Source: Verrucomicrobiota bacterium
Lineage (GTDB): Bacteria; Verrucomicrobiota; Kiritimatiellia; UBA8416
Length of the DNA: 34,080 bases
Reading direction: 5' to 3'
NCBI GenBank assembly: GCA_018645275.1
Contig: JABGOW010000359.1
Location: forward strand, 1-34,080
A program made the translations under genes and the position numbers. The notes beneath the pieces are model-generated. The model was not told the DNA's origin. It searched no databases and saw only the letters and a program-made list of their open reading frames with translations. Positions 12,891-21,017 of this stretch are shown here, piece by piece (the stretch's first letter is position 1; each line of letters opens with the position of its first letter).

Positions 12891-14657
12891 TCAGAACAGG
12901 CTTCGCTTGTACGGAATGGGCTCTTTGTAGGACTTGGACATGCCGCGCAGTTCCGCAAGGACTTCGGCATCGCGGGTACGGGCATATTCGCCTATGAGGT
13001 GGTAGATCTTCTGCTGCGCCCACTGCTGTCGGATCGTTTTGTCAGAGCTACGACTATCCAGCGTGTTCAGGGGTAGATCGAAGATGAGATCGCAGGGGAC
13101 ATCCCCTGCTTGCCCCATGGCCTGAAACACGAGCTTCTCTTCGCCCTTGCGGCAACGCCCATAGAGGACAAGCGGTCGGTCCAGATAGAGATTGCTCACC
13201 TGCCGGGGATAGACCTCACATGAAGAGTCGGTAGCAAACTGTAGCCGCAAATCTCCCAGTACTGGTCGACTGATTCCCCGCATAACCGCTTCTGCAGAGT
13301 CCGGAATGTCCCAGCGACCTTTGGAAATCACATTGACGTATCCCTTATTGCAGTAGCTAAGGAGGTCTATGAGATAGCGGTTTGCCAGTTGCGAAGCCCC
13401 CATTGTGAATACCGAGATTTTTCCTGCATTCCGGCGGCTGAACTCGCCAATAATCTCGGAGTTATCCGTCAACCCTTTGTTTGCCAAGCCATCCGTGATG
13501 ACGAACGCAATGACGGGACGGGTCGATTCGCATTCCAATGACAGAAGGTCCTGCATGGAAGCAAAGAGGTCGGTGTACCCTTGCGCCTTCATGCCGTCGA
13601 TGTAGGCCATAGCCTTTGCTATCGTTTCGGGCGTTTTCGTCACCCAACCATCGAAACAGGTTTCCGTGTGATCGGCAAACCTGGCGATATTGAAGCGGTC
13701 CGATGGACGAATGTGTGCCAGCGAGCGACGTAGGCCTTCCCTGCAGAAGTAGAGGCGCTGTTCAGACATACTCGCTGAACAATCCTGCACCAGGATGATG
13801 TCCTTGGGACGCACGGGAAGGAGCTCCTCTCCCGCCCGCTCCACTTCAAGCCTGAAGTAGGAGTAGCGAAAATCACGCGAAGACGAATAAGTCTGGACCC
13901 GCGCGGTGAGCACACGCTCGATGGCTTCAACATCGGTCACGTCTTCGACGCTTTCCTCGAATAGTTCCTGCGCCCCCCCCGGTGCCATGGCCTCGTTGAT
14001 CGCCTCAGGCAGTGGCTTGGGATCATCCATCCCCCCCACCACGGCCCCCACGATTTCGGAAACCGTTGGCGGAGCGACGGGAAGCCGACCGGACCCCCCG
14101 GCGGCAACGCTATCCCGGCTGGCTGGCAGCACAATGTCAGGGGCATTCGCCACACGTTCAATCGCGGGAATCATACGACGCTCAAGTCCCGGATTTGAGT
14201 CCCCGACTGCAATGTTCTCGATGGCGAGGATTTCCTGGCGAGGCACCCAAGCAACTTGCTCTGGAGGAGGAGTAGGCTCGGCGACATGCTCCATTTCCTC
14301 CATCAGAGCGTTGTCCTCAAGTGCGGGTGGCTCCGTCACAGCCTCTTCGGGGGCAATGCTCATCTCGTCTACGGCCTCGGCGGCTTTTCCGCCCACATCG
14401 CTACCAATCTCCCGCAGAGCAGAGAGCACCCGCTCTTCGATCTCTGGGGTGGTTTCTACCGTTCCGAGGTGCACGGGTTCATACTTGCGCTCCAGAGGCT
14501 TGGCCCCACCGCCAGAAATGAGTTCCAAATCAATCTGAGCAGCAAAAATCAATAACCCGATGTGCACAGCAACAGAGATGATGGCAGCGATGCTTGCCGC
14601 AGGAATGTGGCCCGTGCCAAACGTGAACTGTCTGTCATGATCGGTCAGTTCTGCCAT
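12891..14657 (-). CDS. VWA-domain protein with TonB-like N-terminal membrane anchor
   Basis: The first 20 residues are cytoplasmic. Residues 20-42 form one membrane helix containing Ser28-Val-Ala-Val-His32. The same Ser-x3-His spacing is found in the TonB helix (Ser16, His20 in E. coli), where it couples to ExbB/ExbD. A proline/glutamate-rich linker follows to about 250. Residues 284-460 are a von Willebrand factor A domain with a full metal-ion site: DCSAS (Asp292, Ser294, Ser296), Thr362 in GYTDLF and Asp389 in ITDGLANKG. The C-terminal 120 residues form a beta-rich plus helical end with no TonB_C motif. It is the last gene of the exbB-exbD-TPR-VWA operon and overlaps the TPR gene by 13 bases. 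I infer a PMF-energised complex. The function is unknown. Confidence 0.85.
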   Translation of the reverse strand: MAELTDHDRQFTFGTGHIPAASIAAIISVAVHIGLLIFAAQIDLELISGGGAKPLERKYEPVHLGTVETTPEIEERVLSALREIGSDVGGKAAEAVDEMSIAPEEAVTEPPALEDNALMEEMEHVAEPTPPPEQVAWVPRQEILAIENIAVGDSNPGLERRMIPAIERVANAPDIVLPASRDSVAAGGSGRLPVAPPTVSEIVGAVVGGMDDPKPLPEAINEAMAPGGAQELFEESVEDVTDVEAIERVLTARVQTYSSSRDFRYSYFRLEVERAGEELLPVRPKDIILVQDCSASMSEQRLYFCREGLRRSLAHIRPSDRFNIARFADHTETCFDGWVTKTPETIAKAMAYIDGMKAQGYTDLFASMQDLLSLECESTRPVIAFVITDGLANKGLTDNSEIIGEFSRRNAGKISVFTMGASQLANRYLIDLLSYCNKGYVNVISKGRWDIPDSAEAVMRGISRPVLGDLRLQFATDSSCEVYPRQVSNLYLDRPLVLYGRCRKGEEKLVFQAMGQAGDVPCDLIFDLPLNTLDSRSSDKTIRQQWAQQKIYHLIGEYARTRDAEVLAELRGMSKSYKEPIPYKRSLF

Positions 14658-17014
14658 GTTTCATCCACCTTTCCCGCCCACACACTTTGCGGATAGCGCT
14701 CAGCAAGCTCCTCCACGGCCTTGAGACGATCCTCTTGCCGCTTCAATCGGTCGAATGCCAGTGCAGCCCGAAAAAGGCTCTCCGGCACAAGCTCATCGTG
14801 GTCATACAGAATAGCGACACTCATGTAGTAGCGCGAGGCATCTTCATCAAAGCCGCCAAGCTCGGCCGCACGACCCAGGCCAAAGAAAGCCCGAGCACGA
14901 ACCGCGCCCCCATCCTCTGCACCGCCCTTGTCGGAAGCAATCCGAAAATAGGTCTCAGCGTCCTCGGCATTCTTCTTCGCCAGCGAAAGGTCGCCCAACC
15001 GCAGGGCCGCTTCAGATGCATAGTGCGTGTTGACATCCTGATCCAGTGCCTGCTTCAGAGCATCCTCGGCTTCAGCATTGCGACCACGTGCCATCTCGGC
15101 TCGTGCGAGAAGGACACATCCGGACTGCACCCAGGCCGGCTCAGTCGCCGTCTCGACGAGCAACTCCGCAGCTGCCGCAGCCTTGTCATGGGACTTCTTC
15201 TCTCCATGATGCACTGCAAGCCATTCGAGTAGCGCCGACGGAAACTTCCCGCTGAGCGGGGATGCCAGAAGCGCCTGAAGCAGCTCGGCCGCCTCCTCTT
15301 GGCGATCCAACTTCTGCAGCACGAGCCCAAGCTGAAAAGTCGACTCGCACCGCAGCTCATCGCGGGACGTGGTTTCCATCGCATTGCGCAGGGACTGCTC
15401 GGCCTCGGCAAAGGCCTCCTGCTCGCGCAGCAGCATTCCTTTCCAATAGTGGGCGTCCGGGCCAAAGCGTCCTTCGGGAAAACGCCGGAGCAGCTCAGAC
15501 AGAGAGGCGGTGGCATCGTCACGACGTTCCAGGCGAATTTCGCTCATGGCCTTCTGATACAGAGCATCCTGCACCAGTTCGTGCTCGGGGTACTCGTAGA
15601 CCAAGCGCCGCCAATCGCGAGTGGCCTCATCGTGGATCTTGGCGGTTGCCAGGCAGAAGGCCGAAGCATAGAGGGATTGCGGCGCAAGAGGATCCTCCGG
15701 AAACCCGGTGACGAGCGCGTTGTAAAACTCCGAGGCCTCGCGATACGATTCCTCTTTCTGCAGCTGGTGCGCCAGCCGATAGGTAGCATCGCGGGCACGA
15801 TCGGTACCAGCGGCCTGTCGTATGACCATGCGATAGTACTGCGTGGCTTCTGCGCCACGGTCGAGGGCGGCATAGGACTCCGCCAACAGCCAGCAAACTT
15901 CCACGCGCAGGGAATCTGTGAGGCGAATTCGCTCGGCATGAGAAATGGCGCTGCCGTACTCCCCCATTTTGAAGAAGGCAACCGAGATTTCGTAGCGCGC
16001 GGCTTCGGCGAAACGACTCGCCGGAAAGCGTGTCAGAAGCTCGAGGTAGGACTTCACCGCTACTCGATTCTGGAGCAACTGCCGTTCAGCGTTGGCTCGA
16101 ATGTAGAGCCACTCGTCAAGGCCACTCGTGACATTGGGATCGTTGAGCGCCTTTTCGGCCAGCGAAACGGCATCTGCATACAGGCCGGCGTTACTCGCAG
16201 ACCACGCCGCCTGCATACGGGCCACAGCGGAACGTTCATCGGCAGGATAACGGCTCATCAGTTGACGATAACACTCCGAGCTCTGCTCAAAGTCATGCAG
16301 CCGGAAATATATCTCGGCCATTTGGAAAAGGGCCTCTGCAGCAATGCGATCTGTACCCGGGCGCTCCAGGGCTTGTTTGAAAAATGCGATGGCCTGTTCC
16401 GCCAGCCCCCCGTCCCCATCTTGCTTTGCCTCAAATGCAGCCGACCAGCGATCGCGGTGGATATCGCCGCGTTTCATGAGCGCGTAAACACAGAACATGG
16501 AACTCGGATGCTCCGATACGACCCGCGCCAGCGTGGCATCAGCCTGATCCACGTTGTCCGCTCCGAGAAGAGACTCGCCAAGGTAGTAGAGTGTAGCGGA
16601 GGCCAGATCGGACGGGGGTTTTTCACTGATAATCACATTAAAATGCGCCACCGCAGAGGTGAAGTCCCCATCCTCCATGTAGAGGCGGGCACGACGGTAG
16701 GCCGCTCGCAACCGAAACGGGCTCTGCCTGTGGTCAACGACAACACGTGCATACAGTCGCCCCGCTTCGGACGAGAGGCCCTGCAGCCGCATACACTCTG
16801 CCATACGAAAGGTTGCGGCGTCGCGCTGAGTGCCATCGGGATAGGCCTCAAGAATCGCGGCATACTCCTTCATGGCGAGATCATGCATCCCACGCGTGTA
16901 TAGCCCGTCTGCAAATTGCATGCGGTCGCCATACGCATCAGCCCACACAAGGCTGGACGTCGCGAGACAGAAGCTGAGAATGGCCAACCCGAGTTGGCCG
17001 TAGCGCGAGTTCAT
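14645..17014 (-). CDS. Exported tetratricopeptide-repeat protein, 789 residues
   Basis: A signal peptide (hydrophobic segment about 8-25, cleavage after VWA) directs it to the periplasm or outer membrane. Almost all the rest consists of TPR/Sel1-like helical pairs, roughly 15-18 units. Examples are FADGLYTRGMHDLAMKEY near 34-51, EALFQMAEIYFRLHDFEQSS near 235-255, and DALYQKAMSEIRLERRDDA later. Such arrays are protein-protein scaffolds, like YbgF/CpoB or BamD relatives. It begins five bases after the exbD stop and overlaps the VWA start by 13 bases, so the four proteins are probably made together. I infer that it links the VWA/ExbBD complex to envelope partners. No enzyme motif was seen. Confidence 0.85.
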   Translation of the reverse strand: MNSRYGQLGLAILSFCLATSSLVWADAYGDRMQFADGLYTRGMHDLAMKEYAAILEAYPDGTQRDAATFRMAECMRLQGLSSEAGRLYARVVVDHRQSPFRLRAAYRRARLYMEDGDFTSAVAHFNVIISEKPPSDLASATLYYLGESLLGADNVDQADATLARVVSEHPSSMFCVYALMKRGDIHRDRWSAAFEAKQDGDGGLAEQAIAFFKQALERPGTDRIAAEALFQMAEIYFRLHDFEQSSECYRQLMSRYPADERSAVARMQAAWSASNAGLYADAVSLAEKALNDPNVTSGLDEWLYIRANAERQLLQNRVAVKSYLELLTRFPASRFAEAARYEISVAFFKMGEYGSAISHAERIRLTDSLRVEVCWLLAESYAALDRGAEATQYYRMVIRQAAGTDRARDATYRLAHQLQKEESYREASEFYNALVTGFPEDPLAPQSLYASAFCLATAKIHDEATRDWRRLVYEYPEHELVQDALYQKAMSEIRLERRDDATASLSELLRRFPEGRFGPDAHYWKGMLLREQEAFAEAEQSLRNAMETTSRDELRCESTFQLGLVLQKLDRQEEAAELLQALLASPLSGKFPSALLEWLAVHHGEKKSHDKAAAAAELLVETATEPAWVQSGCVLLARAEMARGRNAEAEDALKQALDQDVNTHYASEAALRLGDLSLAKKNAEDAETYFRIASDKGGAEDGGAVRARAFFGLGRAAELGGFDEDASRYYMSVAILYDHDELVPESLFRAALAFDRLKRQEDRLKAVEELAERYPQSVWAGKVDETWQN

Positions 17015-17019
17015 GTCGA

Positions 17020-17436
17020 CTACTCCTCGACGGTCGATGTGGCAAACGAGATGTTCCAGATGTCCACTTGGCGGCAGAGGTCAAGTACGCCAATCACGTG
17101 TTCATAGGGCGTCCGCTTGTCCGCGCGAATCAGGACAGGCTGTCCGGGGTAGATTTCGACGACACGCCCCAGCAGATTCAGAAGTCCATCGTGGGCGAGC
17201 TGGCGTTGGTTCACAACGGTGACCCCGTCAGCGCGCACGTTGACGATAATCTCTGACGGCAGTCGGTCGGGAATCTCACCCGTCTCCGCTGTGGGCAATT
17301 TGATGTCGATCTCGGTTTCCCACTGTGCATAGATCTGTGCAGCAATAAAGAAGCACAGCAGCAGGAACATGATATCAATCATGGGCGCGAGCTGGAAGCC
17401 GGTGTTGGGGGGCTTTGTTTTTCCACGGAAATTCAC
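17020..17436 (-). CDS. ExbD/TolR-family biopolymer transport protein
   Basis: ExbD proteins form the dimer inside the ExbB ring and use the proton gradient to drive TonB, TolA or similar partners. The 138-residue protein has the standard layout: short cytoplasmic N-terminus, a membrane helix with LAPMIDIMFLLLCFF whose Asp21 matches the essential proton-binding Asp of the family, and a periplasmic domain with the PVLIRADKRTPYEHVIGVLDLCRQ segment. The start is GTG at 17436, overlapping the exbB stop as GTGA. It does not separate clearly into ExbD or TolR. Confidence 0.93.
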   Translation of the reverse strand: MNFRGKTKPPNTGFQLAPMIDIMFLLLCFFIAAQIYAQWETEIDIKLPTAETGEIPDRLPSEIIVNVRADGVTVVNQRQLAHDGLLNLLGRVVEIYPGQPVLIRADKRTPYEHVIGVLDLCRQVDIWNISFATSTVEE

Positions 17437-18191
17437 TTCGCCGTTCTCCTACTCAACAGAGCCATGAAGAGGTCAGCAGAGGCTGACTCCAGCAGGGACA
17501 CCAGTTTGGAGGAACAGCGCCGAAAATAGGCGTAGAACATCATGGCGGGTATGCCGACGACCAGGCCAAAGGCCGTGGTAAGCATGGCCTTGTTCACGCC
17601 GGCAACAAGGGCGGTTGGCCGCACCACGGCAATCTGATCAGAAACGGCATTGAACGCGATCATCATGCCAAACACGGTTCCGAGCAAACCAATCATCGGA
17701 GCCACCACAGCGATATCCATCAGGTACTGGGTTTGCCCCTGAATGGACTCGGACTGACGCGCGCCCTCGGCCTCAACCACATCTCTCAGCAACATGGGGT
17801 CTGCATCCGGGATGCTCTTCATGTGATCGAGCGCCGTCAACATGACCGCCGTCAGTGGCCCACGCCGGAAACCGCAAAGCCGGCGCGCATCGTCAAGCTC
17901 GCCCGCGCGAATCTTCTCCATCAGCTCACTGCGGAACGGCTCTGGCACGACCTGCCGTTTGCGTAGCACAACGCAGAAATAGAGAATGAGTGCCAGCGTT
18001 CCGATCGAAAGCGCTCCCAAGACGCCATAGACGGCTTTGACGGCGATGTCCATCGCCTCAGGAAATGAAATGCCAACCTGAGCGGCCACATCAGAATCCA
18101 TCGTTGAATCCTGCGCAAGGCACGGCATCAACTGCGCACTACCAAAGATCAATCCCACAACCAACAACCCACCAAACCATCGTCTTTTCAT
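17433..18191 (-). CDS. ExbB/TolQ/MotA-family proton channel protein
   Basis: ExbB-like subunits form the pentameric ring of the energising complex. The 252 residues include an N-terminal signal-like segment and an extra ~30-residue periplasmic stretch (QDSTMDSDVAAQ), then the usual three helices (about 52-76, 157-181 and 203-223). Conserved signatures are APMIGLLGTVFGMM with Thr172 and NKAMLTTAFGLVVGIPAMMFY with Thr205/206, matching the polar residues lining the ExbB pore. The ATG at 18191 has AGGAG six bases upstream. It is the first gene of the four-gene operon and follows a 161-base gap after argH. Confidence 0.93.
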   Translation of the reverse strand: MKRRWFGGLLVVGLIFGSAQLMPCLAQDSTMDSDVAAQVGISFPEAMDIAVKAVYGVLGALSIGTLALILYFCVVLRKRQVVPEPFRSELMEKIRAGELDDARRLCGFRRGPLTAVMLTALDHMKSIPDADPMLLRDVVEAEGARQSESIQGQTQYLMDIAVVAPMIGLLGTVFGMMIAFNAVSDQIAVVRPTALVAGVNKAMLTTAFGLVVGIPAMMFYAYFRRCSSKLVSLLESASADLFMALLSRRTAK

Positions 18192-19751: not shown

Positions 19752-21017
19752 TCAATTATCTGTTTCCTGTGCATCGCTGTCGACAAGGGCGCCACCGGCA
19801 GCCCGTACACGTGCCGCCAAATAGTCCAAGGCTGCCTCTGCTGTATCCAAACGCTGCAACAGTACGATGTCTGATGCGTCACTTTCAAGGGCCGAAAGAA
19901 TCTCGCCCAGCTCTGCAACAATGGACTGAAACGCTTCCGCACGGCCGGCAGCAAGCAAATCAAGCCGACGGCGCTTGCTGCGTATAAACGCGGAAACCCA
20001 GTCACTCCGCCGGAATGGCAACAGCCTCGCCAGGGCTGCTCTCCGGGGGAGTTCAACATCAAGGGGAATACCACAGGCCCCTGGATAAATCAACAGTTCG
20101 GACCTCAGCTCATCAATCGTGCGTGTCGAGACAGACCCCAACGTACGTACAACATGACGCTGTCGAAGCAGCCACAGATCCCAAGCCTCATCAGCCCGTG
20201 TCGGGGCGTCCACAGGGACCACGAGCGACTGTAGGCTCTCTACCGTGACGGGAACCCCCGACACCAGCCGCTCGAACAACACCTGGAAGCGTTTCTTACG
20301 TCCGGGCAGCGCGGAGAGCCAACGCACAAAGACCCCGTAGGCTGACAGCCTATCCTGCCCTTCAATCGCCAACTGGCGAGGGTCCTCGCCCTCTCCGTCG
20401 CCAACGATTTCCCAGATGGAAGCCAATTCCCCGGCACGCCAGGCCGAGAGGACGTGTTCGATATTCTCATTGCGGGCAGAGGGCAGCAGGTTCTGCTCAA
20501 CGCCCTTCCACAACCACGGCGGCAAGGCGAGCACGGCAGAAAGGGACTTGTCGACGTAGCTCGAGAGCATCACGCGGCAGAGCGCCTGCCGACCACGAAG
20601 GGCGTAGGCAGCATCGTAGTCACGCAGACTGACCCGGTGCAGACAACGCCCCGCCTGCAAGCCGTGACGTACCGCAACACCCCCCGGAGCAGCCGTCACC
20701 CCCGCCTGAACGACAAGCCGGACCGCGCGTTTCTCAAACGGGAGGGGTACCCCTGTGATCGACTCAACCCGATCGGCAATATCCTCACACCACCCCATGA
20801 GCGAGGCATTCTCGAGGCGATTGGTTCCATTGACCGAGAACCGACCGGTAGTGCTGCTGGCACGCTTCGCAGAGAGTGCTGCAATGCGGGACTGAATGGA
20901 TTCCAACGAATCGTCGGTGGCCGCACAGAACGCGGGCACCACCAAGACAAGCGCGCAACACGTGAGAACCGTGGGCAAACCCGACATGGTTGATATTGCG
21001 CTGTGCTGTTGAGACAC
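19752..21017 (-). CDS. Exported protein resembling a catalytically dead Peptidase_MA-like domain
   Basis: I do not recognise a functional family. The protein is 421 residues with a signal peptide (hydrophobic segment VLTCCALVLVVPAFCA). Residues near 125-180 read RQALCRVMLSSYVDK...LALPPWLWKGVEQNL. This parallels the HELTH...LPxWLxEGLAxY pattern of gluzincin (Peptidase_MA/DUF1570) proteins, but with the zinc and catalytic residues replaced. The remainder is helix-rich. The start is GTG 21017, supported by AGGAG overlapping the FmdB stop. It is co-transcribed with the zinc-ribbon gene and argH. A structural or binding role is inferred. Confidence 0.7.
   Translation of the reverse strand: MSQQHSAISTMSGLPTVLTCCALVLVVPAFCAATDDSLESIQSRIAALSAKRASSTTGRFSVNGTNRLENASLMGWCEDIADRVESITGVPLPFEKRAVRLVVQAGVTAAPGGVAVRHGLQAGRCLHRVSLRDYDAAYALRGRQALCRVMLSSYVDKSLSAVLALPPWLWKGVEQNLLPSARNENIEHVLSAWRAGELASIWEIVGDGEGEDPRQLAIEGQDRLSAYGVFVRWLSALPGRKKRFQVLFERLVSGVPVTVESLQSLVVPVDAPTRADEAWDLWLLRQRHVVRTLGSVSTRTIDELRSELLIYPGACGIPLDVELPRRAALARLLPFRRSDWVSAFIRSKRRRLDLLAAGRAEAFQSIVAELGEILSALESDASDIVLLQRLDTAEAALDYLAARVRAAGGALVDSDAQETDN

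Follow-up and report, generated by a model that had tools for sequence, protein, structure and literature searches.

An ExbB-ExbD-TPR-VWA operon of Verrucomicrobiota probably encodes a proton-driven envelope machine with a VWA transducer

How ExbBD-type motors pass force from the inner membrane on to the outer envelope has been studied well for Ton and Tol-Pal only. A further kind of machine has been proposed in the PVC group (PMC12204202; Mol Biol Evol 2025, msaf138), where tethered vWA force transducers with SHLS-type helices are encoded in the neighbourhood of TPR and tolQ-like genes and a pair of tolR-like genes. AF3 models of the vWA transducer bound to the motor were presented there. Since only "many" members of this first family are said to have SHLS, the full motif is not strictly defining. 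The operon described here is a member of the kind of machine already proposed in that paper. New here are a Ser-x3-His in 69 of 69 VWA orthologues, a VWA gene that is unlinked yet co-inherited, OmpA and GT51 alternatives to it, and a motor that is additional to Ton and Tol.

The operon resembles the Tichowtungia-type vWA family of PMC12204202 in its transmembrane helix with motor-binding Ser/His, its disordered linker and vWA head, its tolQ-like, tolR-like and TPR neighbours and its occurrence in the PVC group. It differs in having one ExbD rather than a heterologous pair, a linker of ~200 aa rather than ~100 aa, and an L/S half of SHLS that is not conserved; the VWA gene is unlinked in most relatives, and among solved structures the nearest fold is that of inter-alpha-inhibitor heavy chain 1, whereas YfbK was named there. 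With TolQ-TolR-TolA (Tol-Pal with CpoB) it shares the motor subunit families, the S-x3-H transducer helix and a CpoB/YbgF-type TPR protein, but the operon lacks the TolA C-terminal domain, TolB and Pal. From ExbB-ExbD-TonB, whose motor families and transducer topology it shares, it is set apart by a VWA head in place of the TonB C-terminal domain (TonB_C).

The window, i.e. the whole 34,080-nucleotide stretch of DNA analysed, contains four minus-strand ORFs at 12891–18191, encoding ExbB, ExbD, an exported TPR protein and a membrane-anchored VWA protein. By their coordinates, ExbB and ExbD overlap by 4 bases, ExbD and TPR are separated by 5 bases and TPR and VWA overlap by 13 bases, so that the gene set, lengths, strand and spacing given in an earlier note on this DNA were exact to the base. 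A purine-rich stretch resembling a ribosome-binding site lies upstream of all four starts, and a promoter/terminator scan detected sites no more numerous than in shuffles. Matches of the operon proteins to Pfam PF01618, PF02472, TPR families and VWA_3/VWA were all above the curated cut-offs. The identical four-gene order was found again in many relatives, indicating that the arrangement was far beyond chance. The features are as follows.

17433–18191, minus strand: ExbB/TolQ-family proton-channel subunit, 252 aa (PF01618, E 1e-26; profile matches to ExbB and TolQ structures; orthologue set A3)
17676–17678, minus strand: ExbB Thr172, aligned with the conserved pore Thr of ExbB (7ajq) and at least 90% conserved in orthologue set A3
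17574–17576, minus strand: ExbB Thr206, second conserved pore Thr, aligned with 7ajq and invariant in orthologue set A3
17020–17436, minus strand: ExbD/TolR-family motor subunit, 138 aa, GTG start (PF02472, E 3e-25; matches to ExbD and TolR structures)
17374–17376, minus strand: ExbD Asp21, predicted proton-carrying residue, invariant in 16/16 and aligned with the ExbD P-x-I-D motif
14645–17014, minus strand: periplasmic TPR protein, 789 aa, with CpoB/YbgF-type repeats (TIGR02795; AF2 model)
12891–14657, minus strand: putative VWA transducer, 588 aa, comprising a transmembrane helix, a ~200-aa linker and a VWA/beta-sandwich head (Pfam; AF2 model; orthologues)
14535–14609, minus strand: VWA transmembrane helix, aa 17–41 (AF2 helix 17–41; hydropathy peak)
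14562–14576, minus strand: S28-x3-H32, the S..H half of the TonB/TolA SHLS motor-binding motif (69/69 orthologues)
14445–14477, minus strand: weak candidate for a D-box-like strand, PVHLGTVETTP, aa 61–71, between two prolines
13923–14534, minus strand: low-confidence Pro/Glu/Ala-rich linker, aa 42–245 (AF2 pLDDT mostly 45–70; composition)
12894–13910, minus strand: VWA plus hybrid-like beta-sandwich head, aa 250–588 (pLDDT mostly >90; Foldseek; profile search)
13770–13784, minus strand: metal-site motif D292-x-S294-x-S296 (D292 and S294 in 69/69; position 296 Ser in 67 and Thr in 2)

We consider it probable that a third proton-driven envelope machine, beyond Ton and Tol-Pal, is encoded here, with VWA as the transducer, the TPR protein in the motor core and a job at the cell wall or outer membrane. 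ExbB and ExbD would form the inner-membrane motor, and the VWA protein would act as a TonB/TolA-like transducer, its N-terminal transmembrane helix binding the rim of ExbB via Ser28 and His32. The ~200-residue linker would extend into the periplasm, where the VWA plus hybrid head may hold a ligand by its metal site, and proton flow would be turned into a pull on that ligand. The TPR protein may be a CpoB-like periplasmic part of the motor core, probably coupling the motor to peptidoglycan synthases or to an outer-membrane partner. The reading draws on sequence, namely the gene set, the conserved motor residues, S-x3-H, the metal site and co-inheritance; from these we infer the binding, the force, the topology in the cell, the TPR role and the client.

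S28 and H32 of the VWA helix were invariant in all 69 complete orthologues, 26 of them found beside ExbD and 43 not. Together with co-inheritance with the motor and a TonB/TolA-like topology, this invariant pair supports the earlier suggestion that VWA is the motor-driven partner. The positions corresponding to the Leu and second Ser of SHLS, H+7 (aa 39) and H+11 (aa 43), were variable among the same 69 proteins. Outside the class, S-x3-H was kept in 11 of 13 VWA loci. The two exceptions (L279 and L280, family f49), both near murJ, have T-x3-H in one and T-x3-Y in the other, and motor coupling may differ there. Beyond the helix, aa 61–71 were compared with the D-box motif of TonB as defined in PMC10907165: hydrophobic positions 62, 64 and 67 recurred in orthologues and no strand was present in the AF2 monomer, a weak D-box likeness.

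The metal site of the head was complete (D292-x-S294-x-S296, T362 and D389), and D292, S294, T362, D363, D389 and G390 were found in 69/69 orthologues. The site had been called intact from the letters of the window, and this was borne out, its residues being as conserved as S28 and H32. The best Foldseek match of the head was 6fpy, inter-alpha-inhibitor heavy chain 1 (E 2e-22), and by sequence profile, single sequence and fold alike the nearest solved structures were inter-alpha-trypsin inhibitor heavy chains. The match covers the VWA/beta-sandwich part only; the heavy chains are eukaryotic and secreted and have no motor helix. A second VWA family (L221, G003:C139, 4889–7075, and similar loci) is longer (700–1100 aa), without the motor helix pattern and probably secreted; it is 24–30% identical to the window VWA, in the head only.

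The best curated family of the TPR protein was the CpoB/YbgF repeat TIGR02795 (206.9 bits against a cut-off of 90.1). Its N-terminus has a hydrophobic, signal-like segment, and the AF2 model is one long all-helical solenoid (pLDDT 91.5), for which the fold search gave generic solenoid matches only, including a flagellar periplasmic scaffold of C. jejuni. The TPR protein had been taken as the scaffold of VWA, a conjectural role; across relatives its gene stays with ExbB-ExbD rather than with VWA. Because of this linkage and the CpoB/YbgF assignment, it looks, by sequence criteria, like a motor-side component. In E. coli, CpoB, itself a TPR protein, links TolA with PBP1B (PMC4458516), and this analogy is a basis for the cell-wall role suggested below. 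At one locus (L049, G055:C33, ~12.8–18.2 kb of the locus), a ~5.4-kb block with a DNA-methyltransferase-like gene and others separates ExbD from TPR, which gives the operon the look of having been interrupted by a restriction-modification-type island.

No TonB, TolA, TolB or Pal was identified among the genes adjoining the operon. Their absence, as first described, thus holds locally but not for the genome, where contig C217 has a TolA-like gene with a TonB_2 domain, TolB and Pal together, and contig C486 has a TonB. Further ExbB-ExbD operons are also present in the genome. With Tol-Pal and TonB genes thus present at other sites of the genome, the VWA motor is additional to Tol-Pal and Ton and no substitute for them. 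Replacement of Tol-Pal was considered and rejected: 94 of 97 class genomes gave TolB-like matches, whether or not they have the VWA system, and the source genome has TolB and Pal of its own. One of the further operons (L210, G000:C421, 1917–7538) is a TPR-ExbB-ExbD-ExbD operon in which the two ExbD genes differ from each other and beside which VWA was not found; in another (L212, G000:C154, 89–4554), the gene after TPR-ExbB-ExbD encodes a protein of 254 aa that has a hydrophobic N-terminus and matches nothing in Pfam. In the window itself, a 421-aa protein without a Pfam match (19752–21017, minus strand) is encoded upstream of argH, and elsewhere in the order a relative is encoded ahead of argH-ExbB-ExbD-TPR.

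The ExbB-ExbD-TPR core is distributed widely across the phylum, and lineages that lack VWA have either a transducer-like protein tipped by an OmpA peptidoglycan-binding domain or a peptidoglycan glycosyltransferase gene adjoining TPR. At 5/5 loci of family f43 and 1/1 of f51, the three core genes are followed by one for a protein of 334–358 aa that combines an S-x3-H helix and a linker with an OmpA domain at its C-terminus, and in f45, f50 and f59 an unlinked protein of the same plan was found. The unlinked OmpA-tipped protein of f42 has Ala in place of the Ser, the His being kept. These unlinked proteins were chosen by a three-sequence profile and are candidate partners of the core. In genus g72 of f42, a GT51 peptidoglycan glycosyltransferase gene follows TPR in 17/17 loci, one of them cut by the contig end. 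In several class members the core comes after ftsK, an HTH_25 (RodZ-like) gene and pgsA; murJ adjoins VWA in 4 of 13 outgroup loci, too weak a signal alone, and the other neighbours (argH, thrS and rho/tig/clpP/clpX) gave no functional hint. Since the core in relatives pairs with an OmpA-tipped transducer or GT51, often beside ftsK/pgsA, the task of the machine is likely to be the coordination of peptidoglycan with the outer membrane, as suggested by gene neighbourhood and domain swap. At somewhat less than even odds, ExbB-ExbD-TPR would be an ancestral, widespread motor core of the phylum with a modular transducer, the head on its S-x3-H anchor being a metal-dependent VWA domain in one version and a peptidoglycan-binding OmpA domain in the other; the core would act on cell-wall synthesis (with GT51 as partner) and would run alongside Tol-Pal as a CpoB-like system. 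Such a widespread additional system, if it exists and its head is interchangeable, would show that the motor and its load are distinct modules, and candidates for the load are indicated by the GT51 and OmpA associations. Complete genomes exist among the families in which the core goes with an OmpA-tipped protein or GT51, and deletion mutants may be easier to obtain there than in the uncultured relatives of the window.

A role in surface motility or gliding, with the VWA head as an adhesin, was suggested in PMC12204202 (for gliding) and accords with the use of VWA folds in adhesion. We regard it as unlikely for this machine, since the head is tethered to the inner membrane by a ~200-aa linker, and both the OmpA domain replacing the head and the pairing of the core with GT51 fit cell-wall work better.

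Linkage of VWA to the motor genes was followed by a gene-neighbourhood search in relatives, in which the VWA gene was away from the operon in 39 of 65 scorable cases, its other sites including one next to DUF1015/thrS and one between rho and tig-clpP-clpX. On the VWA tree the VWA/ExbD linkage state changed ~5 times, at least three changes being forced by well-supported branches. A scan of genome contigs with the single VWA sequence matched nothing, and an alignment query succeeded. Among 97 class genomes, 66 had both VWA and the orthologous ExbD, one VWA only, four ExbD only and 26 neither of the two (Fisher p 2.5e-18, with no correction for phylogeny), with which the distribution of TPR agreed; the genomes are samples, many of them incomplete, and the thresholds were set by the score gap. 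When VWA was not found beside ExbD, the orthologous ExbD and TPR were present elsewhere in 22 of 23 genomes, together in nearly all, with scores of 131–244 bits for ExbD (other ExbDs, 86 bits or less) and 238–941 bits for TPR. The VWA-only genome (G094, 88% complete) is without this ExbD or TPR. In a sample of the phylum outside the class, 13 of 13 VWA-bearing genomes also carried this ExbD. Thus, given co-occurrence within the class and beyond it, VWA depends on the ExbB-ExbD-TPR core, and the core can exist without VWA. The expectation that the four families are conserved as a set therefore stood in one part, VWA almost never occurring without ExbB-ExbD-TPR, and fell in the other, VWA lying elsewhere in most relatives; on genome sequences, conservation is by co-inheritance and not by strict linkage.

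The frequent unlinking, often into housekeeping contexts, could be taken to mean that VWA is an inner-membrane-anchored adhesin or chaperone-like binder merely sharing the operon, while ExbB-ExbD-TPR energises something else, e.g. a TonB encoded elsewhere. Such a binder seems to us slightly less probable even than the motility role: S-x3-H is invariant even in unlinked VWA, VWA occurs nearly never without this particular ExbD and TPR, and in f43 and f51 its position in the operon is filled by a transmembrane protein that likewise has S-x3-H but bears another head. It is highly improbable that VWA turns inside the ExbB pentamer as a pore-inserted subunit rather than binding at the rim, for although tethered vWA proteins replacing TolR in TolQ complexes are described in PMC12204202 as a second family, these are without SHLS residues, have an Asp in the helix and have no ExbD partner, whereas the helix here has Ser/His and no Asp in its hydrophobic core (aa 19–41) and a bona fide ExbD with Asp21 adjoins VWA. 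A VWA transducer bound at the ExbB rim is the reading that we prefer.

The operon holds one ExbD only. Beside the VWA gene of one locus (L052, G094:C116, 12596–14425), repeated translated motifs (e.g. VSIHARVVRAT and FNPRPRGAGD) were observed, with the look of a CRISPR array read as protein.
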